A stretch of 64,000 nt of DNA from Kribbella catacumbae DSM 19601 (GTDB lineage Bacteria; Actinomycetota; Actinomycetes; Propionibacteriales; Kribbellaceae), in contig NZ_AQUZ01000037.1 of assembly GCF_000372465.1 (NCBI RefSeq), positions 170-64,169 on the forward strand. Direction: 5' to 3'. Under the pieces are notes generated by a model. That model saw only the letters and a program-made list of their open reading frames with translations. It searched no databases and was not told the DNA's origin. Position 1 is the stretch's first letter. Every line of letters begins with the position of its first letter. Position numbers and translations under genes: made by a program. Shown here piece by piece: positions 1 through 13,801 of this stretch.

Positions 1-795
1 GCCGGTAACGAGCCGTGGGACAACCACGCCGACGATGCCGCCGCCGCTGACCGGGAGCCGCCGGATCCCGGTGACCCAATGGGCGACCGGCCACACGACC
101 CGTGGGCACCCCGCGATCCCAGGGGCACCCCCGACGCCAGGCCGGCCGAGCCTGAGCCAACCTGGGCGGCCGAGCCGGCCGACGCGGCCGACGCGGCCGA
201 GCCGGTGCTGGATGATGCCGTGCGGCTGGAACTGCGCCGCAAGCTGGCCGCGATCCGCCAGGACGCCTACCGCAGCGGCCTCGGGTCCACCGGGCGCCGC
301 CCGGCTCCCACCACGATGTATGTGCACATCACCGACCAGACCCTGCTCGACGGTGAAGGCGTCGCCCGCGTCGAGCGGTTCGGGCCGGTCCTGGCCGCCC
401 GGCTGGAAGAGCTGCTCGGCCACGACCAGATCGTCATCAAGCCGGTGATCGACCTCAACGACAACCGGATCAACGTCAACGCCTACGAGGTGCCGCGGGA
501 ACTGCGCGAACGCCTCAAGCTCACCTACCCGGTCGAGCAGTTCCCCTACGGAGCCGCCGAGACCACCGAGAGCACCGACCTCGACCACATCACGCCGTAC
601 GACTTCTCCGACACCGGGCCGCCGGGCCAGACCAGCATCGCGAACCTCGCCCCGCTGCGGCGCTACAGCCACCGGGTGAAGACGCTTGGCGGGTGGGCTT
701 CCGAACGCCTCGACGACGGCGCCCTGGAATGGACCACCCCCCACGGCTTCAAATTCCGCGTCGACCACACCGGGACGCACGCACTGGAACCCTAG
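1..795 (+). CDS. HNH endonuclease-like protein, 13E12/DUF222 type (5' end cut by window edge)
   Basis: The frame is open from the first base, so the N-terminus lies outside the window; an internal ATG at 79 is not a convincing start. The visible C-terminal half resembles the HNH end of the 13E12/DUF222 family: the metal-site motif DLDH at bases 577-588, then a GQT...NLAPL segment, and a closing GGW...WTTPHGFKFRVD block. In this family the segment after NLAPL usually reads C-x-x-HH; here it is RRYSHRVKT, with no Cys and a single His. The nuclease site may therefore be weakened. These genes are multi-copy in actinobacteria and often lie near mobile elements, which fits the transposase debris that follows. 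Confidence 0.72.
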   Translation, partial: AGNEPWDNHADDAAAADREPPDPGDPMGDRPHDPWAPRDPRGTPDARPAEPEPTWAAEPADAADAAEPVLDDAVRLELRRKLAAIRQDAYRSGLGSTGRRPAPTTMYVHITDQTLLDGEGVARVERFGPVLAARLEELLGHDQIVIKPVIDLNDNRINVNAYEVPRELRERLKLTYPVEQFPYGAAETTESTDLDHITPYDFSDTGPPGQTSIANLAPLRRYSHRVKTLGGWASERLDDGALEWTTPHGFKFRVDHTGTHALEP

Positions 796-899
796 ATGAC
801 CGAATCCAAGGGGTGTTGGCCGGCGTGGGGCTGTCCGGTGACGTGGAGGGTGCCCAGGATCGGCGTTGCTTACCCAACGTCGACCTCGTGGAGACCTAC

Positions 900-1149
900 G
901 TGGACGCTGATCTGGACACCCTCGCGACAGCACTGTCGTGGGCGCCGATGATCTGCTGAAGGCCCGCCGCTGCGATCTGGACGGCTGGGCCGAATACGGC
1001 TACTGCGCCAGTCATTCGCGCTCGCAAGGGCGAGAGCCGGGGTCTGGGTCCGCGTCGTACAACGCATCCTGGCCCTGACCGCCGCGATCTGGCACAACGA
1101 CCGCACCGGCCAACCCAGCAAGCGATCACCCTTGGCCTACGACCACTGA
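900..1149 (+). pseudogene. Remnant of an IS982-type transposase
   Basis: Three pieces of one transposase are joined by a frameshift and internal deletions. The N-terminal piece reads VDADLDTLATAL, then shifts frame near 936 into GADDLLKA. This runs directly into the mid-protein piece DLDGWAEYGYCASHSR. The last piece, from about 1053, reads RVVQRILALTAAIWHNDRTG and ends SPLAYDH at a TGA (1147-1149). Compared with a full transposase of roughly 270-300 residues, most of the DDE core is missing, so it cannot be active. The family name rests on memory of actinobacterial IS982 transposases that share the GYCASHSR and AIWHND motifs. No terminal inverted repeats were recognised. Confidence 0.75.
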
Positions 1150-1168
1150 CCCCTTGGAATCGATCATC

Positions 1169-1174
1169 TAGGGT
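1169..1174 (+). promoter_or_regulatory. Candidate -10 box for leaderless aroQ
   Basis: TAGGGT is followed by six bases and then the GTG start of aroQ at 1181. This is the TANNNT-6/7-start spacing typical of leaderless actinobacterial transcripts, and no Shine-Dalgarno sequence precedes the GTG. The -35 region is unconvincing. Confidence 0.45.
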
Positions 1175-1180
1175 GGGAGC

Positions 1181-1630
1181 GTGACTGATGTTGCTGGTGG
1201 ACGACGTGTGCTGGTGCTGAACGGGCCGAATCTTGGGCGGCTCGGGTCGCGGGAACCTGATGTGTACGGCGCGATGACGTTCGCGGATCTTGTCGCGGAG
1301 TGCGAGAAGACTGGCGCCGAGCTCGGGCTCGAGGTCGAGGTCCGGCAGACCGACGACGAGGCGGAGTTGGTCGGCTGGCTGCACGAGGCTGCCGACGCGA
1401 AGACCCCGGTGGTGCTCAACCCGGCGGCCTTCACACATTACTCGTACGCCCTCCGCGACGCCTGCGCCCAGCGAACCGCCCCGCTGGTCGAGATCCACAT
1501 CAGCAACCCGGCGGCGCGTGAAGAGTTCCGCCACACGAGCGTCGTCGCGGCGGTCGCGAACGGCACGATCGCCGGCTTCGGCGTCGACTCCTACCGCCTC
1601 GCCCTCCGCGCCATCACCACCCTGACCTGA
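1181..1630 (+). CDS. aroQ: Type II 3-dehydroquinate dehydratase
   Basis: Converts 3-dehydroquinate to 3-dehydroshikimate in the cytosolic shikimate pathway, usually as a dodecamer. The 149-residue protein has the usual length. It carries the N-terminal motif [17 protein letters not shown] (residues 14-30) with the catalytic Tyr at 29, the substrate loop [15 protein letters not shown] (80-94), and [15 protein letters not shown] with the catalytic His at 106. The GTG start at 1181 is supported by a TANNNT box at leaderless spacing. In relatives aroQ sits with aroB/aroK/pepQ next to efp; here it follows an IS remnant and is cut off from efp by about 5.7 kb of other genes, suggesting rearrangement. 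Confidence 0.95.
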
Positions 1631-1638
1631 CGGGTCAG
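1622..1638. terminator. Weak hairpin between convergent aroQ and ridA-like gene
   Basis: CTGACC and GGTCAG form a 6-bp stem over a 5-nt loop that overlaps both stop codons. There is no T-tract. It might end transcription from either side, but it is short. Confidence 0.25.
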
Positions 1639-2030
1639 TCGGTGACGGCGATGGCGTCTACCTCTATGAGGTAGCCCGGGGCCCAGAGGGACTCGACGCC
1701 TAGCAGGACGTCGGCTGGTTTGTGGTTGCCGAAGAGGGTGACTCGGGCCGCCTCGATGTCTGCCAGGTACTCGCGGCGGTGGCCGACTACGTAGATCGTG
1801 ATCTTGACGACGTCGCTCGGCTTGGCGTCGGCTGCGGCCAGCGCGCGGCCGAGGTTGGCGAAGACCTGCCGGGCTTGGGCCGCCAGGTCGTTGAGGCCGA
1901 CCAGTTCGCCCGACTCGTCCTCGGCCAGTTGGCCGGCCACGTACACCTGCCGGCTCCCGGTGGCCGTCACGACGTGCGTGTAGGTCTGCGGCGTCGGCAG
2001 ATCCTCGGGGTTGATCAGTTCGAGCGTCAT
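1635..2030 (-). CDS. RidA (YjgF/YER057c/UK114) family protein
   Basis: A 131-residue single-domain protein of the RidA family, whose best-known members hydrolyse reactive enamine/imine intermediates made by PLP enzymes. Family signs are the strand YVAGQLAED (about 29-37), NLGRALAAADAKPSDVVK (59-76), and the C-terminal block PADVLLGVESLWAPGYLIEVDAIA. The usual RidA substrate-binding arginine near the C-terminal R-x-x-V segment is not evident: the position reads LLGVESLWAPG, so this is probably one of the Rid4-7-like subfamilies and deaminase activity is uncertain. It is convergent with aroQ and stands alone. Confidence 0.85.
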   Translation of the reverse strand: MTLELINPEDLPTPQTYTHVVTATGSRQVYVAGQLAEDESGELVGLNDLAAQARQVFANLGRALAAADAKPSDVVKITIYVVGHRREYLADIEAARVTLFGNHKPADVLLGVESLWAPGYLIEVDAIAVTD

Positions 2031-2296
2031 GGTCGTCAGGATAGGCAGCCGGAAGGGGCGCCGGCGGGGGTCGCGAAGGCGTCGTTTCCTGGCGCCGATC
2101 GGACAAGAGATCGGCGTGAGACGCCGGTGAAATGTGGTCAGGTCACCCTTAGCTTGAGTCGGGATACCGCCTGCGGCTGATTCTGAAGGCTGGCTGAAGG
2201 TCGGGCATCACGATCGGGATTGACGATATTGGGGGTTCGCTCGTGACTGCGGATTCGATCCGTTCCGTTCCACAACGCTCTGGGGGAGTGACGCAC

Positions 2297-2962
2297 ATGA
2301 CGCAACAACGCATACCTGTCTGGGTGAGGGCTCTCGACCCGCTCTCGCAGTTCGGGTTGGTGCACTCGCTCAGGCAGCGTCCGGAGATCCTGCTCATCGG
2401 TGAGGCCGAACTGGCCGAGTCGCAGCAGGCGAAGACCGACCAGCGCACCACCCCGCCAGTGGTGGCTCTGGTAGCGGTCGACTCTCTGGACGCGGGCGCA
2501 GTGCAGGTACTGCGCTCGGCGACCCAGCGGGGTTGTCGCCGGACCGTGCTGATCGCCAGCACGATCGACGACGAGGCGCTGATGACCGCGGTCGAGCTCG
2601 GGGTGTCGGGCGTGCTTCGGCGTACCGATGCCACGGCCGACCGGATCGTGCACCTGATCCAGGCAGCCGCTGCCGGCGACGGTAGCCTGCCGCCTGATCT
2701 GCTGGGCCGGTTGCTCGGGCAGGTGTCGCGCATGCAGCGGCACGTGCTCGCACCTCGGGGCCTGTCGCACACCGGGCTGTCCGACCGGGAGACGCAGGTA
2801 CTGCGCCTCGTGGCGGACGGCAAGGACACGCAGGAGATCGCTCGCGAGCTGTCCTACTCCGAGCGGACGGTGAAGAACGTCCTGCACGACGTGACGAGCC
2901 GCCTGCAGCTGAAGAACCGTTCGCACGCCGTCGCCTACGCACTGCGCGAGGGCCTGATCTAG
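2297..2962 (+). CDS. LuxR/NarL-type regulator with an atypical receiver domain
   Basis: 221 residues: an N-terminal receiver-like domain (about 1-135) and a C-terminal LuxR helix-turn-helix (about 150-221; LSDRETQVLRLVADGKDTQE, then YSERTVKNVLHDV). The first strand reads VWVRALDPLS, so the acidic pair that binds Mg in true receivers is reduced to one Asp; phosphorylation by a kinase is doubtful and none is adjacent. The ATG at 2297 has GGGGGAG eight bases upstream and is preferred to an in-frame GTG at 2243. Target genes are unknown. A strong terminator follows. Confidence 0.85.
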   Translation: MTQQRIPVWVRALDPLSQFGLVHSLRQRPEILLIGEAELAESQQAKTDQRTTPPVVALVAVDSLDAGAVQVLRSATQRGCRRTVLIASTIDDEALMTAVELGVSGVLRRTDATADRIVHLIQAAAAGDGSLPPDLLGRLLGQVSRMQRHVLAPRGLSHTGLSDRETQVLRLVADGKDTQEIARELSYSERTVKNVLHDVTSRLQLKNRSHAVAYALREGLI

Positions 2963-2982
2963 CAGTTCCACCCACCACCACC

Positions 2983-3013
2983 GCCGGACCGGGCTCAGCC
3001 CGGTCCGGCTTTT
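2983..3013. terminator. Rho-independent terminator
   Basis: A perfect 12-bp stem (2983-2994 with 2998-3009) over a TCA loop is followed by TTTT. It ends the LuxR-type gene and touches the stop codon of the convergent SDR gene at 3013. Confidence 0.85.
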
Positions 3014-3657
3014 CAGTAGCCGACCGTGAACCGCGTGCAGTGGTGCTGCGGGCGCTCTGCTTCGTCGAGGAGGGCGATGGCGAAGTCCTCCATCGAGATG
3101 TACGACGTACCGTCGGCGGCGGTGAGCAACTCATCCCGGCCGAGGCGGTAAGTGCCGGTCCGGACGCCTGGTTCGAGAAGGGCAGGCGGGCTCAGGTAGG
3201 TCCACTCCAGGTCGGCGCTGCTGCGGATCACCTCCAGTTGCTCGTTGCAAGCCAGCGCGATCGGCCGCAGCGCCGCCGGGAAGCCGGGCCCATCAACGAC
3301 CGTCGTACTGCGATCGCCGGGCAACGTGAGACTCGCGGCACCGCCGACGATCAACAGCCGAACCCCGGTCCCCGCCAGCCCAGACACCAACCCCTTGGCG
3401 GCAATCGCCAGCTCATCCTCCCGCCCAGGAACCGGACGGGTCGCGCTGATCACCAGATCCTGACCACGACTCAACCGAGTGACCTCAGTGGGATCCGACG
3501 CATCACCCCGCCGAACCCGCAGCCCGCCGGCCGCGTCGTCCTTGGATGATCGGAGGGCTTGGCGGCTGACCGCTGTGACCTCATGGCCGCGAGAGAGCGC
3601 TTCCTGAACTACTCGGCTGCCGACCGCGCCGGTGGCTCCGAAGACTGTGATGCGCAT
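3013..3657 (-). CDS. NAD(P)-binding atypical SDR (NmrA/SDR_a5-like)
   Basis: 214-residue Rossmann protein. The dinucleotide motif GATGAVGSRVV (residues 8-18) is followed by an acidic/basic strand (VTAVSRQ), DASDPTEVTRL, and the strand DLVISATRPVPG. It lacks the YxxxK active site of classical SDRs, as is normal for the atypical NAD(P)H-binding group. Substrate unknown; roles range from redox sensing to epimerisation. It lies 3 nt downstream of the DMT transporter on the same strand, so the two are probably co-transcribed from the promoter shared with marR. Confidence 0.82.
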   Translation of the reverse strand: MRITVFGATGAVGSRVVQEALSRGHEVTAVSRQALRSSKDDAAGGLRVRRGDASDPTEVTRLSRGQDLVISATRPVPGREDELAIAAKGLVSGLAGTGVRLLIVGGAASLTLPGDRSTTVVDGPGFPAALRPIALACNEQLEVIRSSADLEWTYLSPPALLEPGVRTGTYRLGRDELLTAADGTSYISMEDFAIALLDEAERPQHHCTRFTVGY

Positions 3658-3660
3658 GGG

Positions 3661-4563
3661 TCAGACCCTTTCGGTGACGGGGACGGGCGTGCTGGACGCC
3701 TGAGGAGTGGGCTTCTTCCTGGTCTGTGCGGTGATCAGCGCGGCGAGCACGATCAGTCCGCCGACGAGCTGCAGCGGGCTGAGCCGCTGGTCGAGCACGA
3801 GCCAGCCGAGGAGGGTCGCCACAACCGGACTGAGCAGACCGAGGAACGTCACGTTGGTGGGGGAGAGGCCGCGAAGACCACGGAACCACAATGCATAGGC
3901 CACCGCGGATCCAAGGATCGTCAGGTAGGTGTACCCAGCGACATTGCCGAGTGTGAAGGACGCAGGGAGCGATCCCTCGACGATCCATGCGACCGGCAAC
4001 AACAACAACCCGCCTGCGACCAACTGCCAGCCGGTTGTTGCGAGGAGCGGAGCCGGCGAGGTCCAGCGCTTGCTTAGTACGACGCCAGTGGCCATCACCA
4101 CGGCACCACCCAGAGCGGCGGTGACGCCCCACGCGTCCAGCCGTGCGTCAGCCCGCAGTACAAGCAGACTCACGCCAGTCACGCCGGCGATCGCGGTCAG
4201 CATGGTCTTGACCGTCAATCGCTCGCCGAGCAGACCGGTCGACAGTAGAGCGACCAGCAGCGGCTGCAGCGCCCCCACGGTCGCGGCGACGCCGCCCGGC
4301 AGCCGGTAGGCGCCGATGAAGAGCAGCGCGTTGAACGCCCCGATGTTGAGTGCGCCCAGCACGAGCGCCCGCCACCACCAGATCCCCTGCGGCAGCCGCC
4401 GGGTGAGCGCGACGAGAAGGAGACCGGCCGGGAGGGCACGGATGAAGGCGGCGAGAAGCGGACGCTGCGGTGGCAACAGTTCCGTTGTGACCAAGTAGGT
4501 GGTTCCCCACAGCGCCGGCGCGATCGCCGTGGTGAGGATCAGGGAGGCTCGATTGCTTAGCAC
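3661..4563 (-). CDS. EamA/DMT-family exporter
   Basis: 300 residues with about ten hydrophobic helices, starting APALWGTTYLVTTELLPP, and with the two-fold EamA repeat (second copy from about 150). The PALWG...PP pattern is typical of drug/metabolite exporters of the inner membrane. The predicted GTG start (4563) lies inside the palindrome at 4553-4591 and has no clear Shine-Dalgarno sequence, so translation may be leaderless. It is divergent from a MarR regulator, which makes MarR-controlled export of a small molecule likely. The substrate cannot be told from sequence. Confidence 0.86.
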   Translation of the reverse strand: MLSNRASLILTTAIAPALWGTTYLVTTELLPPQRPLLAAFIRALPAGLLLVALTRRLPQGIWWWRALVLGALNIGAFNALLFIGAYRLPGGVAATVGALQPLLVALLSTGLLGERLTVKTMLTAIAGVTGVSLLVLRADARLDAWGVTAALGGAVVMATGVVLSKRWTSPAPLLATTGWQLVAGGLLLLPVAWIVEGSLPASFTLGNVAGYTYLTILGSAVAYALWFRGLRGLSPTNVTFLGLLSPVVATLLGWLVLDQRLSPLQLVGGLIVLAALITAQTRKKPTPQASSTPVPVTERV

Positions 4564-4591
4564 TAAGACAATGTATCTCAGCGCTAAGCAA
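4553..4591. promoter_or_regulatory. Palindromic operator of the marR/DMT divergent promoter
   Basis: The 16-nt arms TTGCTTAGCACTAAGA (4553-4568) and TCTCAGCGCTAAGCAA (4576-4591) are inverted repeats with 13 matches over a 7-nt spacer. It lies across the start of the DMT gene and about 50 bp before marR. A further CACTAAG half-site is at 4612-4618. Position and shape fit a MarR dimer site that controls both directions. Confidence 0.7.
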
Positions 4592-4630
4592 CTTTCCAGT
4601 GTTTTAGCTCACCACTAAGAGATCCAGCGG

Positions 4631-4636
4631 TACGCT
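4631..4636 (+). promoter_or_regulatory. Candidate -10 box for leaderless marR
   Basis: TACGCT, then six bases, then the ATG at 4643. This matches TANNNT leaderless spacing, and no Shine-Dalgarno sequence is present. Confidence 0.5.
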
Positions 4637-4642
4637 GAACAG

Positions 4643-5140
4643 ATGGCGGATCATGTCGACCAGATACTCGGCCAATGGCGCGAGCAGCGCCCGGACCTGG
4701 ATGCGTCCCCCATGGCCGTACTGGGCCGGGTGAGCCGGCTTGCCCTGCTGATCGACGCCGAGCTGCGCCGCAACTTCGCCACCCACGATCTCGACCGGGC
4801 GTCGTTCGACGTCCTGGCCACCCTCCGGCGCAGCAACGCGGAACACAGCCTGACCCCGGCCGGGCTGATGCGCTCGTCGATGGTCACCTCCGGCGCGATC
4901 ACCCAGCGGCTCGACCGGCTGGAGGCCCGCGGCCTGGTCAAGCGCAGCCCGAGCGAGACGGACGGCCGCGGCGTCCTGGTGACGCTCACGCCGCCCGGGC
5001 TGGAGCTGATCGACAAAGTGCTGCCGACCCACATCGCGACCGAGAACCGGCTGCTCGAGGGTCTGTCCGGCGCCGAACGGGAAGCGCTGGCCGGCACCCT
5101 GCGGACCTTGCTCGAATCCCTCGGCGACAAGACGGACTGA
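4643..5140 (+). CDS. MarR-family transcriptional regulator
   Basis: 165 residues. The winged helix-turn-helix occupies about 30-130: SFDVLATLRRS (helix 2), LTPAGLMRSSMVTSGAITQR (recognition region), LEARGLVKRS, and the wing SPSETDGRGVLVTLTPPG, which is the classical MarR D-x-R-G signature. Long N- and C-terminal helices should form the dimer interface. It is divergent from the DMT exporter with a palindrome between them, so it probably represses that exporter and itself and responds to a small ligand. The methyltransferase gene starts 4 nt downstream and is likely in the same transcript. Confidence 0.92.
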   Translation: MADHVDQILGQWREQRPDLDASPMAVLGRVSRLALLIDAELRRNFATHDLDRASFDVLATLRRSNAEHSLTPAGLMRSSMVTSGAITQRLDRLEARGLVKRSPSETDGRGVLVTLTPPGLELIDKVLPTHIATENRLLEGLSGAEREALAGTLRTLLESLGDKTD

Positions 5141-5144
5141 CGCA

Positions 5145-6359
5145 ATGGATGCCAGCGGCAACGATTCCCGGTACGCCGGAAGGTTGCGCGCGGCATTGAC
5201 CGACCTGCTCGTCGCCCAGGGAGCGATCCACGACCAGCGGGTCGAGGCGGCCTTCCGCGCCGTACCGCGGCACCTCTTCGTCCCCCAGGTGCCGCTGGAG
5301 ATCGCGTACACCGACGACGTCGTCCTGATGAAGCGCAACCAGGCCGGCGTCGCCATCAGTTCCGTCTCGCAGCCGACCGTGGTCGCGCTGATGCTCGAGC
5401 AGGCCGATCTCCAGCCCGGTCATCGGGTGCTCGAGATCGGCTCGGGTGGTTACAACGCCGCCATGCTGCACGAGCTGGTCGGGCCCACCGGTCACGTCAC
5501 CACGATCGACATCGACCAGGACGTGGCCGACCGCGCGCGCCGAGGGCTGGACGCCGCCGGCTATCCAGAAGTCCAGGTACTGCGTACCGACGGCGAGTTC
5601 GGCTGCCCGGAGAGCGCTCCCTACGACCGCGTCGTCGTCACGGTCACCGCCTGGGACGTCGCGCCCGCGTGGATGACGCAGCTCGCGCCGGGCGGGCGCA
5701 TCGTCGTACCGCTGAGGTTGCGGTCGCAGACCCGGTCGATCGCCTTCGACTTGCTCGACGGGTTCCTGGAGAGCCGGTCGATGGCGGTCTGCGGATTCGT
5801 CTGCATGCAAGGCGTCGGCGCGAGCTACGAGCGGTACGTGCCGTTGCAAGGTGATCTGGTGAGCCTGACCTTCGACGAGGATCAGGTTGACGAGCAGGAG
5901 CCGCCCGAGCGGGTGCTGGACCAGCCGAGGGAGTCGGCCTGGTCGGGCGTTCTGATGAACCGCGAGGAAGCGCTCTCCGACCTCGACCTGTGGCTTGCAT
6001 CGACACTGCCCGGGTACTGCGTACTGAGCGCCGAGCGCCGCGCGCTGAAGAAGGGGCTGGTCACACCGGTCCCGCGATGGGGGGCCTCTGCGATTGCTTC
6101 GGGCAATTCGCTCGGCTACCTGACTGCACGCCCGGCGGCGGATCCGGACTTCGTCGAGCTCGGCGCCAATGCCCACGGATCCGCGGCGCAGGACTTTGCT
6201 CAGCTACTCGTCGATCAGGTGAGCCAATGGGACAAGAGCTTTCGCGGCGGTCCCGGGCCGACGCTGCAGATCCATCCGGCGGTGTTCCCGCCCGAGCAGC
6301 TACCGCCGGGCTTTCACCTCAACACCCGCCACAGCCAGGTGACCATCAGTTGGCCGTGA
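5145..6359 (+). CDS. PIMT-like protein methyltransferase of the FxLD-system type
   Basis: 404 residues, longer than housekeeping isoaspartyl methyltransferases (about 210-230). The N-terminal half has the PIMT fold: AFRAVPRHLFVP, the Ser-rich substrate loop AISSVSQPTVVALMLEQ, and SAM motif I as RVLEIGSGGYNAAML (about 93-107; the GSGGYNAA form is that of the methyltransferases filed with FxLD lanthipeptides rather than EIGTGSGYQ). The C-terminal 180 residues form an accessory domain. PIMT homologues in peptide gene clusters convert Asp to isoAsp or aspartimide. No precursor peptide or lanthipeptide synthetase lies nearby, so the target is unknown; it may share the MarR promoter. Confidence 0.78.
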   Translation: MDASGNDSRYAGRLRAALTDLLVAQGAIHDQRVEAAFRAVPRHLFVPQVPLEIAYTDDVVLMKRNQAGVAISSVSQPTVVALMLEQADLQPGHRVLEIGSGGYNAAMLHELVGPTGHVTTIDIDQDVADRARRGLDAAGYPEVQVLRTDGEFGCPESAPYDRVVVTVTAWDVAPAWMTQLAPGGRIVVPLRLRSQTRSIAFDLLDGFLESRSMAVCGFVCMQGVGASYERYVPLQGDLVSLTFDEDQVDEQEPPERVLDQPRESAWSGVLMNREEALSDLDLWLASTLPGYCVLSAERRALKKGLVTPVPRWGASAIASGNSLGYLTARPAADPDFVELGANAHGSAAQDFAQLLVDQVSQWDKSFRGGPGPTLQIHPAVFPPEQLPPGFHLNTRHSQVTISWP

Positions 6360-6360
6360 T

Positions 6361-7188
6361 TCAGGTCTTCGGGCGGCCTGCGTCACGGACGGTTTGCCAG
6401 AGCTCGTCCATGTCGGTGCGGTCCTCGGGCTCGGGCTTCTCGACCCAGCCGCTGGCCCAGACGTTCTCTTCGCGGTCGAGATCGAAAGGCGACTCGGCGA
6501 ACGCGGCCGAACCGACGTACCGGGTCTCTTCCTCGACCGGCGCCGAGTGCGTGCTGTCCGGGTCGGTGGTCGAGCCCGGCTTGGCGGTCGGTGTGATCAG
6601 GCCGCGGGCGTACTCCTGGGCGTCGATGATGCCGAGATCCTGTTCGTCGCAGAGCAGCCGGATGGCCGCGACCTCATGTCCCGTCCTCATCAACTCGCGG
6701 ACGCGCTTCTCGATGTCGCTGTTCTGCGCCGGCATCGTCGGGTGATGGCCTGGGATCCGCTGCGGCGCCTGCACCTGGGGCGGCGTCGGCCACGGGTTCG
6801 GCTGCCCGGCGTACTGCTGCGGCGGCTGGTACTGCCCAGGCGGCGCGTACTGACCAGCCTGCACCACCGGACCAGGCTGCCCCGCGTGGTGGCCCGCCTG
6901 CTGACCTGTCTGCAGCAGAGCCTGCAGCATCCCGGCGAGCTGGGCGCTGCTCTGCGCGCGTCCTCCCGCCTGCACAGGGTTGCCAGGCTGCGCGGGGAAC
7001 CCCGACGCGGGCTGGGTGTACTGCCCCTGGGCCTGCGGATGCTGGTTGGCGGTCTGCTGGGCCCGGATGCGCTCGAGCAACTTCTCTATCGTCGGGCTCG
7101 GAGTCGCCCGGTCGGTCTGGCGCTTGGCCGCCTTCCGGCCGAACCCGAAGATGATCATCAGGACCACGAAGATGATGAAGCCCGTCAT
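6361..7188 (-). CDS. Membrane-anchored protein with Gln/Pro-rich linker and SHOCT-like C-terminal segment
   Basis: 275 residues if started at the ATG at 7188, which has GGGAGG six bases upstream; a longer frame has no such support. One N-terminal helix ([16 protein letters not shown]) is followed by KRQ, so the bulk should be cytoplasmic. Residues about 45-165 are a low-complexity Q/P/G/A linker with [13 protein letters not shown]-like repeats. A short helical segment, [20 protein letters not shown]...[11 protein letters not shown], resembles SHOCT oligomerisation modules. The acidic C-terminus has no known motif. Function unknown. It is convergent with the methyltransferase and divergent from efp. 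Confidence 0.7.
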
Positions 7189-7351
7189 CGGATGCCTCCC
7201 GGGCGCGGTCTGGAAGAGCCTGAAGGCCAGCGTAGAGCCCCCGGAGACCACGAATCGGGAGAACCGCCTGGTGACCGCTACAATCTGGCGTACCGCTGAT
7301 CACTTTCACTATGACTTTTCACTGGGTCACTTTCTTAAGGGGAATTCCCGC

Positions 7352-7915
7352 GTGGCATCGACGAACGACCTCAAGAACGGCATGGTGCTCAACCTGGATG
7401 GGCAGCTGTGGTCTGTCGTCTGGTTCCAGCACCACAAGCCCGGTAAGGGCGGTGCCGTGATGCGGACCAAGCTGAAGAACGTGCTGAGCGGCAAGGTCGT
7501 CGACAAGACCTTCAACGCCGACGTCAAGGTCGAGGTGGCCAACGTCGACAAGCGCGACATGACCTACCTGTACAACGACGGCGGCTCCTACGTCTTCATG
7601 GACAGCTCGACCTACGAGCAGGTCCACATCACCCCCGAGGTGGTCGGGGAGGCGTCGCACTTCCTGCTGGAGAACCAGGAGGCCATCGTCGCCGTCCACG
7701 AGGACCTACCGCTGTACGTCGAGCTCCCGGCCTCGGTCGAGCTCACGGTGGAGTACACCGAGCCCGGCCTGCAGGGCGACCGCTCGACGGGTGGCACCAA
7801 GCCCGCCAAGCTGGAGACCGGCTACACCATCAACGTCCCGTTGTTCCTGACCACTGGCGAGAAGGTCAAGGTGGACACCCGGACCGGGGACTACCTCGGC
7901 CGCGTCACGTCCTGA
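7352..7915 (+). CDS. efp: Translation elongation factor P
   Basis: Relieves ribosome stalling at polyproline by entering between the P and E sites. The 187-residue protein has the normal three-domain length. Domain I contains [14 protein letters not shown] with Lys32 at the loop tip that reaches the peptidyl-tRNA. The later blocks [19 protein letters not shown] and the C-terminal [20 protein letters not shown] are canonical. The GTG at 7352 is preceded by AAGGGG at about 10 nt and gives the conserved start [13 protein letters not shown]; the reading frame itself runs further upstream. nusB begins 22 nt after its stop, the conserved actinobacterial pairing. Confidence 0.97.
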
Positions 7916-7937
7916 TCCCGAGAGCTGACAACAGAAC

Positions 7938-8348
7938 ATGTCTGCCCGCAGCAAGGCCCGCAAGCGCGCCCTCGACGTGCTGTACGAGTCGGAGGTCCGG
8001 GGGCTGTCCGTCGGCGGCACCCTGGCCGACCGGGTGGCTGACAACGACCCGCCGGTGAACGAGTTCACCGTGGCGCTGGTCGAGGGCGTGTCCGAGCACA
8101 TCGAGTCGATCGACGACCTGCTCAGCACCCACTCGGTGGGCTGGTCGCTGGACCGGATGCCGGCCGTCGACCGCAACATCTTGCGGATCGGCGTCTACGA
8201 GCTGCTCTTCGACGAGCAGGTGCCGGACGTGGTGGCGGTCAGCGAGGCCGTCTCGATGGCGCGCGACCTGTCCACCGACGAGTCGCCGGCCTTCGTCAAC
8301 GGGCTGCTGGCCCGGCTGTTGCAGCTCAAGCCCACGCTCGGAGTCTGA
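7938..8348 (+). CDS. nusB: Transcription antitermination factor NusB
   Basis: 136 residues, the typical size. It begins SARSKARKRALDVLYESEVRG, the conserved RNA-binding first helices, and ends with NILRIGVYELLF...VVAVSEAVSMARDLSTDESPAFVNGLLARL, the signature NusB C-terminal half. NusB with NusE (S10) binds boxA in rRNA leader transcripts and supports processive antitermination. It is in the efp-nusB operon and is followed by a hairpin. Confidence 0.96.
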   Translation: MSARSKARKRALDVLYESEVRGLSVGGTLADRVADNDPPVNEFTVALVEGVSEHIESIDDLLSTHSVGWSLDRMPAVDRNILRIGVYELLFDEQVPDVVAVSEAVSMARDLSTDESPAFVNGLLARLLQLKPTLGV

Positions 8349-8376
8349 GCTCCGGCAAGACCTGAAAGCTTCGATA

Positions 8377-8408
8377 GGCCCGGTACCGCCACGGTGCGGT
8401 GCCGGGCC
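8377..8408. terminator. Terminator hairpin after nusB
   Basis: A 13-bp stem with one T-G pair (8377-8389 with 8396-8408) encloses the loop CACGGT, followed by CTCT. It lacks a long T-run, as is common in high-G+C actinobacteria. It separates nusB from convergent bldD. Confidence 0.6.
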
Positions 8409-8550
8409 CTCTCAGCGTCCCCGTGCGTCGGCGCGGGGGGAACGGCCCCGGCCTGGTACTGCTCAGCTGGCCCGTCTCCGTGCGGAGAGGCGGGCAGGCG
8501 GCCGTGGGCAAGCTGCTACGAGCCCCGACCGTCGTGTCATGCCCGGCCGA

Positions 8551-9063
8551 TCAGGCGCCGGCTGCCTCGGACTCCTCGACGTCGCCCTTCGCCTCCGGGT
8601 TCAGCACACCCCAGGAGATGAAACGCTCGGTCAGAGTCGTCGGCGACTCGTCGTAGATCACGGCGAGGGTGCGCATGTCGTCCTGACGGATCGACAGCAC
8701 CTTGCCGTTGTAGTCCCCGCGCTGAGCCTGGATCGTGGCCGCATACCGCGTCAGCGGACCGGCCTCGCTCGCGTCGAGGTGTTGCAGAGCCTCCAGATCC
8801 AGAATCAACCGGGGCGGAGCTGCAGCCGCAGCAGCCGCACTGGCGGATCCAGGAAGCAGCTCACGGATCGGCACGCCGTAGAAATCGGCGAGCTCCGCAA
8901 GCTTCTGGACGGTGACGGCCCGATCGCCACGCTCGTAAGAGCCGACGACGACCGCCTTCCAGCGACCCTTGGACTTCTCTTCCACACCATGCAGCGACAA
9001 ACCTTGCTGCTGGCGGATGGCGCGCAACTTGCCGCCTAGTGTCTTCGCGTATTCGCTAGGCAC
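8551..9063 (-). CDS. bldD: Developmental master regulator BldD, c-di-GMP responsive
   Basis: 170 residues, close to Streptomyces BldD. The N-terminal helix-turn-helix (about 3-70) includes GLSLHGVEEKSKGRWKAVVV and SYERGDRAVTVQKLAELADF, nearly invariant in the family. After an Ala-rich linker (73-82) the C-terminal domain carries RGD (115-117), eight residues, then RQDD (126-129): exactly the RxD-X8-RxxD signature that binds the c-di-GMP tetramer in Streptomyces. BldD-c-di-GMP represses sporulation genes. Whether this organism sporulates is unknown, but the ligand site is intact. The start is GTG. A BldD box 87 bp upstream suggests autoregulation, as in Streptomyces. Confidence 0.95.
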   Translation of the reverse strand: MPSEYAKTLGGKLRAIRQQQGLSLHGVEEKSKGRWKAVVVGSYERGDRAVTVQKLAELADFYGVPIRELLPGSASAAAAAAAPPRLILDLEALQHLDASEAGPLTRYAATIQAQRGDYNGKVLSIRQDDMRTLAVIYDESPTTLTERFISWGVLNPEAKGDVEESEAAGA

Positions 9064-9149
9064 GCTGGTTCTTCCCTCCGACTTTTGGTCGTTACTCCGG
9101 TGGCCCGGACGGTGTTACTTGGGTGGGCCGTTTGGTGAAACCCCCCACG

Positions 9150-9164
9150 GTTACACAGAGTAAC
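9150..9164. promoter_or_regulatory. BldD box in the bldD/pyrR intergenic region
   Basis: GTTACACAGAGTAAC fits every fixed position of the published 15-bp BldD pseudopalindrome (NTNACNC[A/T]GNGTNAN). It lies 87 bp before the bldD start and 118 bp before pyrR, so it may serve bldD autorepression and could touch the pyr promoter. Confidence 0.75.
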
Positions 9165-9245
9165 AATATTCTGGTCGCGAGGCCAGCGTCAAGACGGCGT
9201 GTCACTTCCGATACCATGTCAAGTGGTCCGAACGTCCTTTAAAGA

Positions 9246-9263
9246 CCCGTCCAGAGAGGCGGG
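9246..9263 (+). promoter_or_regulatory. PyrR-binding stem-loop in the pyr operon leader
   Basis: The loop TCCAGAGAGG, closed by CCCG/CGGG, reproduces the conserved PyrR anti-antiterminator loop known from Bacillus. Three bases later comes the Shine-Dalgarno AAAGGAGG (9264-9271) of pyrR. There is no room or T-run for a terminator between loop and start, so UMP-loaded PyrR most likely blocks ribosome binding, as proposed for mycobacteria. A candidate -10 (TACCAT, 9212-9217) lies upstream; its -35 is poor. Confidence 0.8.
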
Positions 9264-9281
9264 AAAGGAGGAACGGTAGCG

Positions 9282-9911
9282 ATGAGCCCTGCCTCGGTGC
9301 CAGAGCCGGCGGCCAGAGAAGCAGAAAATTCTGCCTCCGCGGTCAAGGCTGTACCCCGCACAGTGCTGGATGCTTCCGATATTTCCCGGGCACTGACCCG
9401 GATCGCGCACGAGATCCTCGAGCGCAACCGGGGTGCCGACCCCGTCGTCCTGCTCGGTATTCCGACCCGTGGCGTGGGTCTGGCGACCCGCATCTCGGAG
9501 CGGATCGCGGCCGTCGAGGGGCGGAGCGTGCCGACAGGGTCACTCGACGTGACGATGTACCGCGACGACATCGGCCTCAAACCGGCGCGTGCGCTCGAGC
9601 ACACCGATATCCCGTCCGGCGGGATCGACGGCAAGGTCGTCGTCCTGATCGACGACGTGCTGTTCTCCGGCCGCACCATCCGCGCCGCGCTGGACGCGAT
9701 CGGCGACATCGGCCGGCCCAAGGCGGTCCAGCTGGCCGTCCTGGTCGACCGCGGCCACCGCGAGCTGCCAATCCGCGCGGACTACGTCGGCAAGAACCTG
9801 CCCACCTCCCTGGTCGAGCGGGTCACCGTCCACCTCACCGAGTACGACGGCGCCGACGCCGTACTGATCGCCGACAAGACGGTCGCCGACAAGACGGGAG
9901 CCTCCGCGTGA
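9282..9911 (+). CDS. pyrR: Pyrimidine operon regulator PyrR (UMP-binding PRTase homologue)
   Basis: 209 residues; Bacillus PyrR has about 180, and the extra length is a poorly structured N-terminus (1-25). The PRPP-binding loop is [20 protein letters not shown] (119-138). [16 protein letters not shown] (53-68) and [10 protein letters not shown] (87-96) are also family signatures. PyrR binds UMP or UTP and then the mRNA loop described just upstream of this gene, lowering expression of the whole operon; many homologues keep weak uracil phosphoribosyltransferase activity. First gene of the pyr operon, overlapping pyrB at its stop. Confidence 0.96.
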
Positions 9912-10870
9912 TGCGGCATCTGCTCAGCGCGGGCGACCTGAGCCGCGACGACGCCAACCTGATCCTGGACACCGCCGAGGAGATGCGCTCGCTCGCGGAC
10001 CGGCCGATCAAGAAGCTGCCCGCGTTGCGCGGGCGCACGGTGGTGAACCTCTTCTTCGAGGACTCCACCCGGACCAGGATCTCGTTCGAGGCGGCCGCCA
10101 AGCGGCTGTCCGCCGATGTGATCAACTTCTCGGCCAAGGGCTCGAGTGTCAGCAAGGGGGAGAGCCTCAAGGACACCGCGCTGACGCTGCAGGCGATGGG
10201 TGCCGACGGCGTCGTCTGCCGGCACGGCTCGTCGGGCGCGCCGCACCTGCTGGCCACCTCGGGCTGGCTGAACGGCTCGGTCGTCAACGCCGGCGACGGC
10301 ACCCACGAGCACCCGACCCAGGCTTTGCTCGACGCCTTCACGATGCGCCGCCACCTCGGTTCGCTCGACGGTCGCCGGATCACCATCGTCGGCGACGTGC
10401 TGCACAGCCGGGTGGCCCGGTCGAACGTGCTGCTGCTCTCGACCCTCGGCGCCGAGGTCACCGTGGTCGCGCCGCCGACGCTGCTGCCGGTCGACATGAC
10501 CAACTGGCCGTGCGCCACGTCGTACGACCTGGACGGGTCGCTGGCCAAGAGCGACGCGGTGATGATGCTGCGGGTGCAGCGTGAGCGGATGAACGACGCG
10601 TTCTTCCCCAGCGCCCGCGAGTACACCCGGCGCTACGGCCTGGACGTGCACCGGATGGCCCAGCTGCCCGACGAGGCGATCGTGCTGCACCCCGGCCCGA
10701 TGAACCGCGGCATGGAGATCAGCGCCGACGTCGCCGACTCGAACCGCTCGGTGATCGTCGAACAGGTCACGAACGGCGTGGCGATCCGGATGGCCGTGCT
10801 CTACCTGCTGCTCTCAGGCAGTACCGACAGCAGTACTGACACCAACCCGACAGAGGAGCCCACGGCATGA
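9908..10870 (+). CDS. pyrB: Aspartate carbamoyltransferase catalytic chain
   Basis: Joins carbamoyl phosphate and L-aspartate, the committed step of UMP synthesis. About 320 residues, normal for the catalytic chain. The carbamoyl-phosphate site [13 protein letters not shown] (residues 49-61), the SKGES loop with CP-binding Lys, and [14 protein letters not shown] are all present. Start GTG at 9908 (GTGA overlap with pyrR) or ATG at 9911; GGGAG at 9896-9900 suits the former. No regulatory chain gene pyrI is present, as usual in actinobacteria; PyrB may work with PyrC. Confidence 0.96.
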
Positions 10871-12174
10871 CCGCGTACCTGATCACTGGAGCCAAGGTCG
10901 TAGGTGTCGGTCAAAAATCAGACAGAGTGGCGGACCTGCTGATCGACAACGGCGAGATCGTCGCCGTGGGCAACGACCTCGCAAAGCCCGAAGGCGCCGA
11001 GGTGATCGACGCGACCGGTCAGATCGCGCTCCCCGGCCTGGTCGACCTGCACACCCACCTGCGCGAGCCCGGCCGCGAGGACGCCGAGACCGTGCTCACC
11101 GGGACCCGGTCCGCGGCGATGGGCGGGTTCACCGCCGTGTTCGCGATGGCCAACACCGACCCGGTGGCCGACACCGCCGGCGTCGTCGAGCAGGTGTGGC
11201 GCCTCGGCCGCGAAGGCGGGTACGCCGATGTCTACCCGATCGGCGCGGTCACCGTCGGCCGGCAGGGCACCCAACTCGCCGAGCTGGGCGCGATGGCGGA
11301 CTCGGCGGCCCGGGTGCGGGTGTTCTCCGACGACGGCGACTGTGTCTGGGACGCCGCCCTGATGCGCCGCGCTCTCGAATACGTGAAGGCCTTCGGCGGC
11401 ACGATCGCCCAGCACGCGCAGGAGCCGCGGCTGACGCAAGGCGCCCAGATGAACGAGGGAGCGCTCTCCGGCGTACTCGGCCTGACCGGCTGGCCGAGCG
11501 TCGCGGAGGAGTCGATCATCGCGCGCGACATCCTGCTCAACGCCCACGTCGGCTCGAAGCTGCACATCTGCCACCTGTCCACCAAGGGCTCGGTCGAGAT
11601 CGTCCGGGCCGCCAAGAAGCGCGGCCTCGAGGTCACCGCCGAGGTGACGCCGCATCACCTGCTGCTGACCGAGGACCTCGCGGCGTCGTACAACCCGGTT
11701 TACAAGGTGAACCCGCCGCTGCGCACCAAGGCAGACGTCGAGGCGGTCCGCGAGGGCCTGGCCGACGGCACGATCGACATCGTCGCCACCGACCACGCGC
11801 CGCACCCGGTGGAGGACAAGGACTGCGAGTGGAGCGCCGCCGCGTTCGGGATGACCGGGCTGGAGACCGCTCTCTCGGTGGTCCAGCACACGATGGTCGA
11901 CACCAAGCTGCTGACCTGGGCCGACCTGGCCGACCGGATGAGCTTCCGCCCGGCCGCGATCGGCCAGATCAGCGAGCACGGACGCCCGCTGGAGGTCGGC
12001 GCCCCCGCCAACCTGGTCCTGGTCGACCCGGCCGCCGAGCGCACCGTCGTACCGGCCGAGACCGCGTCGCTGTCGCGGAACACGCCGTTCGCCGGGATGA
12101 CGCTGCCCGGTCGGGTGATGGCGACCTTCCTGCGCGGCGAACCGACTGTTCTGGACGGGAAGCTCACCAAGTGA
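10867..12174 (+). CDS. pyrC: Dihydroorotase, class I
   Basis: Cyclises carbamoyl aspartate to dihydroorotate with a metal centre. 435 residues, the class I size. Metal-binding [10 protein letters not shown] (His62 and His64), the [10 protein letters not shown] strand, VTPHHLLL, and TDHAPHP near residue 310 are intact. It overlaps pyrB by 4 nt (ATGA) and in turn overlaps the next gene, so it is translationally coupled. Confidence 0.96.
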
Positions 12175-12659
12175 AAGCCGTTCTAGGCGTCCTCGGCACG
12201 CTGCTGGTGATCGGCGGCGGCTGGTTCGGCATGTACCGCGGCTGGCGCAACCGCCAGTCGCGCCAGGCCGACCTTGCCCCGCTGCCGGCCGTGCCCGAGG
12301 GCAAGGTGAAGGGCGTCGAAGGCGTGTACGTCGCCACGACGACCGCCGGCGACTGGATGGACCGGATCGCCGTGCACGAACTCGGAGTCCGCAGTACAGC
12401 GGACCTGGCCGTCAGTGAGGCCGGCCTGATCTTCCACCGGCAAGGAGCGTCGGACGTCTTCATCCCGGCCGCCCACCTGACCGGAGTCCGGACCGACCGC
12501 GGCATCGCGGGCAAGGTGACCGCCGAGGCCTCCGGGCTCGTGGTGGTCACCTGGACGCACGACGGCCGCGAGCTCGACACCGGGTTTCGGCCGCGCCGCA
12601 AGGCCGACTCCGCCGGTCTGACCGCATCCATCTCGACCCTGATCGGAGCCGAGCAATGA
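12171..12659 (+). CDS. Membrane-anchored PH-like protein of the pyr operon
   Basis: 162 residues from a GTG that overlaps the pyrC stop. One N-terminal transmembrane helix ([18 protein letters not shown]) is followed by RGWRNRQSR, so the rest should be cytosolic. The C-terminal part (about 40-160) has the strand pattern of the bacterial PH-like domain that actinobacteria keep between pyrC and carA ([48 protein letters not shown]). Its function is unknown. The strict location between pyrC and carA and overlaps at both ends suggest a link to the pathway, perhaps tethering enzymes at the membrane; that is inference. Confidence 0.82.
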
Positions 12660-13801
12660 GCCTGGCCGCCCTGCAACCCGCGCTGCTGGTCCTCGAAGAC
12701 GGCCGCGCGTTCGCCGGTACGTCGTACGGAGCGACCGGCGAGACCTTCGGCGAGGCGGTGTTCACCACCGGCATGACCGGCTACCAGGAGACACTGACCG
12801 ACCCGTCGTACCACCGCCAGATCGTCACCCAGACCGCGCCGCACATCGGCAACACCGGCGTCAACGACGAGGACGACGAGTCGCAGCGGATCTGGGTCGC
12901 CGGGTACGTCGTCCGCGACCCCGCCCGGGTGCCGTCGAACTGGCGCGCCACCCGCACCCTCGACGACCAGCTGAAGGGCCAGGGCATCGTCGGGATCTCC
13001 GGCATCGACACCCGCGCGCTAACCCGGCACCTGCGCGAGCGCGGCGCGATGCGGGCCGGTATCTCCACCGAGATCCTGGAGCCGGAGGCGCTGCTCAGGA
13101 AGGTGCTCCAGCAGCCGCCGATGGCCGGCGCCGACCTGGCCGACGAGGTCACCACCGCCGCCGCGTACGTCGTACCGGCCGAGGGGGAGAAGCGGTTCAC
13201 CGTCGTCGCCCTCGACCTGGGGATCAAGACGATGACGCCGAAGCGGATGGCCGAGCGCGGCATCGAGGTGCACGTGCTGCCGGCCACCGCGTCCCTCGAA
13301 GAGGTGCTGGCGGTCAACCCCGACGGCATTTTCATGAGCAACGGCCCGGGCGACCCGGAGACTACCGAGCACCCGACCACGCTGCTGAAGGATCTGCTCG
13401 GCCGGAACATCCCGTACTTCGGGATCTGCTTCGGCAACCAGGTCTTCGGCCGGGCCCTCGGGCTGGGCACCTTCAAGCTGAAGTACGGGCACCGGGGGAT
13501 CAACCAGCCGGTGCTCGACCGGGCCACCGGCAAGGTCGAGATCACCGCGCAGAACCATGGCTTCGCTGTGGACGCGCCGCTCGACAAGACCGTGGAGACG
13601 CCGTACGGCACCGCCGAGGTGAGCCACGTGTCGCTCAACGACAACGTCGTCGAAGGGCTCAAGCTGACCGGCAAGGACGGCGAACCGCTGGCCTTCTCGG
13701 TCCAGTACCACCCAGAGGCAGCAGCCGGGCCGCACGACTCGGCCTACCTGTTCGACCGCTTCGTAGAGCTGATGACCGTTTCTTCTAAGGATGGGAACTG
13801 A
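12656..13801 (+). CDS. carA: Carbamoyl-phosphate synthase small (glutaminase) subunit
   Basis: Hydrolyses glutamine and channels ammonia to CarB. 381 residues. The N-terminal CPSase domain includes [18 protein letters not shown]; the C-terminal class I amidotransferase has nucleophile Cys258 in [14 protein letters not shown] and the later HPEA His-Glu. In many CarA proteins the motif is GICLGHQ; the Asn in GICFGNQ is a known variant. Stop-start overlap with the PH-like gene before it and with carB after it. Supplies carbamoyl phosphate for both pyrimidines and arginine. Confidence 0.96.

Follow-up and report, generated by a model that had tools for sequence, protein, structure and literature searches.

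What does a methyltransferase of the FxLD lanthipeptide type do where no lanthipeptide gene stands beside it? In the soil actinomycete Kribbella catacumbae such an orphan gene occupies a fixed place in the core chromosome, with a gene for a MarR-type regulator in front of it, and it lies in the window, i.e., the whole stretch of 64,000 nucleotides analysed here. Our preferred reading, to which we give a probability of about 0.6, is that the orphan is a PAMT (peptide/protein L-aspartyl O-methyltransferase) that is untied from any peptide cluster and has an unlinked polypeptide as its substrate. The features of the locus are the following.

3013-3657, minus strand: NAD(P)-binding protein, beyond the DMT gene
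3661-4563, minus strand: EamA/DMT-type exporter, divergent from marR (PF00892, 131 bits)
4556-4567, no strand: operator-like palindrome 1, CTTAGCACTAAG, overlapping the DMT start codon
4577-4588, no strand: operator-like palindrome 2, CTCAGCGCTAAG, in the marR-DMT intergenic region
4608-4619, no strand: operator-like palindrome 3, CTCACCACTAAG, in the marR-DMT intergenic region
4643-5140, plus strand: MarR-family regulator, first gene of a putative operon (PF12802, 47.5 bits; PF01047, 40 bits)
5145-6359, plus strand: FxLD-type (PAMT) methyltransferase, 404 aa, matched by TIGR04364 over its full length
5145-5819, plus strand: PIMT-like SAM methyltransferase domain, residues 1-225 (PF01135 at residues 17-220), motif I VLEIGSG-GYNAA
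5820-6356, plus strand: C-terminal domain, residues 226-404, covered by TIGR04364, with WDKSFRGGPGP at residues 362-372
6361-7188, minus strand: convergent neighbour, 275 aa, no Pfam match

The orphan enzyme and its surroundings

The profile search matched the orphan to TIGR04364 ("methyltransferase, FxLD system") with about 498 bits against a cut-off of 320 and over positions 1-394 of 394, in agreement with the sequence-only reading, which had called it an FxLD-type methyltransferase of about 400 residues. It scored below the cut-offs of both PIMT models (NF001453, 141.7 against 188 bits; TIGR00080, 119.1 against 159.05 bits) and of the graspetide methyltransferase model (TIGR04188, 147.9 of 380 bits). 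By profile and model the orphan has the PAMT architecture, a PIMT-like domain followed by a C-terminal domain of more than 100 residues (226-404), and the domain boundary at residue 225 is our own placement. The short SAM motif GSGGYNAA had been taken as a sign of the FxLD type. It was indeed found in 30 of 31 aligned rows, including the cluster-borne L009 and L054, but the enzyme of the second FxLD cluster in the same genome (L011) carries AGTGYNAA, compared with which the motif of the orphan is one residue shorter; judged from these alignments, the short form is common in the family and is no strict signature. The WXXXGXP motif near the C-terminus of the lasso, graspetide and imiditide PIMT homologues (PMC13001092) is absent from the orphan, whose C-terminal stretch at 362-372 corresponds to WDRxHRxGPGP in the consensus of 40 relatives, which were retrieved partly through the pattern EIGSGGYN. 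Ten positions do not vary among the 16 cassette enzymes that were aligned (S72, S75, P77, E97, G99, G101, G102, N104, D122 and D149).

An AlphaFold2 model of the orphan, with 39 relatives as further input, had a mean pLDDT of 93.7. In the PDB comparison with VIA-align, its methyltransferase domain matched PIMTs and PCMTD1 with Z of 21-30, the best domain match being 2yxe (Z 30.1, rmsd 1.6 over 212 residues, model 10-228), and the entries listed below these (Z 13.4 and less) were other SAM-dependent methyltransferases. The T. maritima PIMT 1dl5 (Z 29.1, rmsd 7.6 over 310 residues, model 14-404) is the only listed entry whose alignment runs through to the last residue of the model, 404, and by the tool's own warning the comparison beyond residue 226 is barely tested. 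This protein differs from the orphan in having 317 aa and is 26% identical to it over the alignment; the rmsd of 7.6 indicates that the two domains are placed or built differently. Lee et al. knew of no solved structure other than 1DL5 in the clade that has the C-terminal domain (PMC10787088).

Among known systems, LanS_A/OlvS_A of the Streptomyces olivaceus class I lanthipeptide is like the orphan in profile match, C-terminal domain, the short GSG-GYNAA motif and the W...RxGPGP stretch, whereas the orphan belongs to a separate clade, its locus lacks precursor, LanB and LanC, and it has a fixed chromosomal position with a MarR gene in front. The housekeeping PIMT/Pcm has the methyltransferase domain PF01135 in common with the orphan, which differs by its extra domain and its sub-cut-off PIMT scores, and the PIMT of this genome is a separate gene. 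Lee et al. (2023) counted 3653 of 9408 PAMTs, about 39%, without an assigned partner (PMC10787088); as that class is described there, the orphan is alike in its length of more than 300 aa, its C-terminal domain and the lack of a RiPP partner. Two graspetide-type methyltransferases are also encoded in the K. catacumbae genome (328.6 and 370.3 bits, both under the TIGR04188 cut-off of 380), each beside an ATP-grasp peptide maturase gene (TIGR04187, cut-off 350; 323.7 bits on contig C21, under it, and 360.8 bits on C62, over it), and these graspetide-like pairs of maturase and methyltransferase lie at L058:5021-7128 and L059:5203-7286.

The flanks had been described as free of partner genes, and this held for the first 18 kb of the window, in which tblastn at 1e-10 found no relative of LanB, LanC, SpaB_C or ATP-grasp proteins and no small ORF of FxLD type (FxLD with Cys and Ser/Thr) was found; the upstream flank in this search spans only about 5 kb, as the contig starts 169 bases before the window. 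The orphan is separated by 4 bases from the MarR gene and by 1 base from the convergent gene, whose stop begins at 6361, so an adjacent precursor has no room. Small ORFs near marR-methyltransferase pairs of relatives had been suggested as well, and in a comparison of those within 6 kb of the gene centre in 28 loci, none of the best 12 conserved sets directly adjoined the methyltransferase. Most of these sets are associated with other genes or precede pyrR, at distances of more than 2.4 kb from the centre, and one, from 12 loci, lies 1.4-2.0 kb off centre on the opposite strand, upstream of the convergent neighbour and outside the marR-methyltransferase pair. Scans run without a positive control for type II pamtide precursors (adjacent zinc-ribbon) and, by a rough composition rule, for type I precursors (G/P/D-rich) returned 0 in the 29 cassette loci, for type II including the window, and 0 in the 69 comparison loci. 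Window positions 1-16000 gave no Rfam match at the gathering threshold. At about 9200-9280, upstream of pyrR, a short stretch is conserved in 27 loci and can be read as a 26-aa ORF; it is perhaps a pyr leader RNA.

Distribution, ancestry and loss within Kribbella

The genus sample comprised 38 Kribbella genomes, a family-level search gave the same 38, and 14 loci duplicating others were skipped. A full-length copy, 58-80% identical to the orphan, was found in 28 genomes, always 2.2-2.9 kb from nusB and, within the fetched stretch, with aroQ on the other side in 26. The orphan is thus no stray gene: it is syntenic throughout the genus, and what makes this otherwise ordinary member of the family informative is its setting. 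Two further genomes (G019 and G001) carry truncated copies of 275 and 277 aa (L090 and L091), which retain the methyltransferase domain without the C-terminal domain, and 8 of the 38 have no copy; in seven of these eight the locus itself was read, and in the eighth (G031) the marR-DMT pair sits elsewhere. One locus (L100, NZ_JAAGLV010000001.1) is titled Streptomyces sp. SID13031, and by synteny and sequence it falls inside the Kribbella group, so that the name looks wrong.

The protein tree was built from 112 of 122 rows, leaving out ten, namely one distant and several partial sequences, near-copies, and L069 with its frame extended to 502 aa. In this tree the 29 rows of cassette enzymes come together in a single group with an SH-aLRT of 99 and stand apart from the Lan-associated, most graspetide and the PIMT rows, and both the tree and the profile scores thereby bear out the expectation that the orphan would not group with housekeeping PIMTs. 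The AU test, which used 92 of these 112 rows, did not reject a topology in which all other FxLD-type rows make up one clade that excludes the cassette (p 0.925); this constrained tree even surpassed the free search by 26.7 log units, and we therefore do not claim that the cassette was domesticated from a cluster. A contig scan with a single protein query found no relative, and an alignment query gave 301 matches, of which 80 were kept, the set being biased towards the motif by search patterns that included EIGSGGYN. The nearest relatives found outside the genus are at most 50% identical to the orphan. Among the 80, 66 are such outside loci, of which 52 have a LanB relative and 14 do not, some of the latter running to contig ends. 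Small clades without LanB in the fetched flanks occur in Frankiaceae (L139, L154, L159, L164), Catenulispora and kin (L122, L173, L178) and Nocardiopsis (L158, L171), and these groups may represent further orphan lineages.

Within the genus the methyltransferase was probably lost repeatedly, as far as trees and junctions indicate. On a tree of six core flanking proteins, gene presence needs 6 changes for the 7 gene-less rows (191 of 500 shuffles were as low), and on the MarR tree it needs 7 changes for 8 gene-less rows, the outgroups in both trees being our choice. The junctions between marR and the neighbour in seven gene-less loci measure -4, -4, -4, 0, 7, 22 and 43 bp, of which the three of -4 bp may go back to a single event. 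Gain rather than loss of the gene was considered and rejected, because the gene-less loci are scattered over the trees and their junctions differ. The median dN/dS of the orphan over 15 hand-picked pairs was 0.25 (0.20 in the methyltransferase domain and 0.30 behind it), as compared to 0.12 for MarR (13 pairs), 0.08 for the DMT gene (12), 0.12 for a LuxR-like gene (11), and 0.10, 0.09 and 0.08 for the core genes nusB, pyrB and aroQ, i.e., two to three times the values of the flanking genes. The value of 0.25 shows that the orphan is under purifying selection, and its excess over the neighbours, together with the absence or truncation of the gene in 10 of 38 genomes, argues against a central role. 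By these sequence comparisons the gene is selected, yet dispensable and fast-evolving, a chromosomal gene that Kribbella would have inherited vertically.

This pattern bears on the idea that the orphan is a spare protein-repair enzyme (isoAsp to Asp), induced through MarR as a stress backup for the housekeeping PIMT. Such a role would agree with the behaviour of the characterised homologue OlvS_A, which also accepts isoAsp and methylates it faster than the Asp forms (PMC13001092), a stress function would suit control by MarR, and the solved structure aligning farthest with the model, 1dl5, is annotated as a PIMT. Against it, a standard PIMT over the cut-off is already encoded on contig C27 (251.2 bits, cut-off 188), as the sequence-only reading had expected, the orphan itself scores under the PIMT cut-offs, 28 of 30 carriers retain the C-terminal domain, a part missing from canonical PIMTs like the Pcm of E. 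coli (PMC13001092), and the methyltransferase seems to have been lost frequently. We therefore regard the repair role as doubtful, though it survives best among the alternatives.

MarR, the DMT exporter and the palindromic boxes

The MarR gene ends 4 bases upstream of the orphan, and in 26 loci the methyltransferase start lies -16 to +6 bp from the marR stop, the starts being partly extrapolated; the putative MarR operon proposed earlier fits this spacing. MarR is encoded in 34 of the 38 genomes, namely in all 8 without the methyltransferase, where it is 79-82% identical, and in 26 of the 30 with it. The divergent exporter scored 199.9 bits against TIGR00950, below its cut-off of 230.2. Four of the 30 carriers (L066, L067, L081 and L083) have neither MarR nor DMT at the locus, and in L070 the DMT gene is absent from it.

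Three palindromes occupy the region between marR and the DMT gene, at spacings of 21 and 31 bases, which correspond to roughly two and three helix turns; as the first extends over the start codon of the DMT gene, coding constraint accounts for part of its conservation. The pattern CTYASCRCTAAG occurs four times in the 9.6 Mb genome (151 contigs), three of them in this region, and since a reversed control pattern occurs three times, the fourth genomic box needs no explanation. Within the 130 bases upstream of marR that were counted, strict matches to CTYASCRCTAAG number three in 11, two in 10 and one in 5 of the 26 loci with the methyltransferase, and three in 5 and two in 3 of the 8 loci without it, so that all 34 MarR loci have one to three boxes; none was found within the 18 kb examined of the four MarR-less loci. 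Because the boxes are equally kept where the methyltransferase is missing, they appear to serve MarR and DMT first and do not tie the methyltransferase to MarR. The palindromic sites in marR's own promoter region predict an autoregulated operon, in which MarR would bind the boxes and marR and the methyltransferase would form one transcript, and the orphan would most likely be expressed as the second gene of this operon.

The exporter had been proposed to carry the product, and in a fuller version of this idea a small peptide or a carboxylate metabolite is methylated by the orphan, exported by the DMT protein and sensed by MarR. The shared divergent promoter region with its three boxes and the tight marR-methyltransferase spacing speak for such an arrangement. 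It is weakened by the persistence of MarR and DMT in all eight genomes without the methyltransferase and by the four carriers without both, and the parts of PMC10787088 and PMC13001092 considered here describe only peptide or protein substrates. Since each occurs without the other, a tight partnership between methyltransferase and exporter is unlikely as judged from gene content, and the whole scheme seems to us less probable than the repair role.

Substrate, proposed chemistry and significance

A third candidate function is action in trans on the FxLD lanthipeptides of the same genome. A genome search for FxLD precursors and LanB enzymes, as had been recommended, did turn up two FxLD systems, but each includes a methyltransferase of its own. 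Three methyltransferases of the genome pass the TIGR04364 cut-off, the orphan and those of contigs C92 (517.7 bits) and C2 (482.1 bits); precursors over the TIGR04363 cut-off and LanB domains over theirs were found genome-wide on these two contigs only, and a subthreshold TIGR04363 match lies on C52 (14.3 bits, cut-off 30). The FxLD class I lanthipeptide cluster on C92 (L056:595-7224) has the order methyltransferase, 53-aa precursor, LanB, LanC and Lant_dehydr_C protein, and that on C2 (L057:8018-14676) includes LanC and a methyltransferase fused to a thiopep_ocin/Lant_dehydr_C domain. Both precursors are thus available in the cell's own genome and the orphan scores like the cluster-borne enzymes, to which, however, it is only 44 and 46% identical. 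Across the genus, the precursor model was matched in 6 of 38 genomes and in 3 of the 28 full-length carriers, K. catacumbae being one of these, and LanB was found in 15 of 38 genomes and 11 of the 28. This single short model may miss some precursors, as in G017, which has FxLD-type methyltransferases near LanB and LanC and zero matches. With 25 of 28 full-length carriers lacking a precursor match and 17 of 28 lacking LanB, an FxLD peptide made elsewhere, as earlier suggested, is very unlikely as the general substrate on these gene counts. A strain-specific action is conceivable because K. catacumbae itself carries FxLD precursors, and we consider the trans role improbable, slightly more so than the exporter scheme.

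The convergent neighbour has a hydrophobic N-terminus, a Pro/Gln/Gly-rich middle and a strongly conserved acidic tail, and was found in all 30 loci with the methyltransferase and in 7 of 8 fetched loci without it (37 of 38 genus loci). That the orphan modifies this Pro/Gln-rich, membrane-anchored protein is the least credible proposal, for its constant proximity (not always direct, an additional gene intervening in L081), its conserved acidic tail and the analogy with PAMTs proposed to act beside FHA proteins with Pro/Gly-rich regions (PMC10787088) are outweighed by the retention of the protein and its acidic tail in 7 of 7 aligned loci lacking the methyltransferase.

We therefore return to an FxLD/lanthipeptide-type PAMT whose tie to a peptide cluster was either lost or never existed. 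In its published homologues the methylated residue is Asp, within a substrate that is cyclised or folded, and the outcome is aspartimide and isoAsp (PMC10787088, PMC13001092, PMC7268733). By analogy, SAM would be the methyl donor of the orphan and the acceptor the side-chain carboxyl of one specific Asp (or isoAsp), the polypeptide that contains it being folded or constrained, and the methyl ester would collapse to an aspartimide, which would open to isoAsp or Asp. The substrate would most likely be either a protein of the cell or a peptide from another locus, of a kind other than the FxLD lanthipeptides. A review notes isoAsp in MurA, a cellular protein, which sets a precedent for targets of this kind (PMC13001092). 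A more specific version, in which a MarR-controlled lanthipeptide-type methyltransferase converts one selected Asp residue of a cellular protein to aspartimide or isoAsp, is offered tentatively and is on the whole unlikely; if true, it would be a ligand-responsive modification of the protein backbone outside natural-product biosynthesis.

A PAMT in a MarR/DMT setting was not found among the titles and abstract openings of the open-access literature that was searched, and the words "Kribbella", "MarR" and "EamA" are absent from the main text of PMC10787088. Orphan PAMTs are an already known, unexplained group, and what is new and testable here is the MarR/DMT setting. Kribbella offers a defined, genus-wide orphan PAMT at a single locus, with natural pairs of presence and absence and a predicted MarR switch, and the question of what an orphan PAMT targets becomes testable by comparing strains that kept the gene with strains that lost it.
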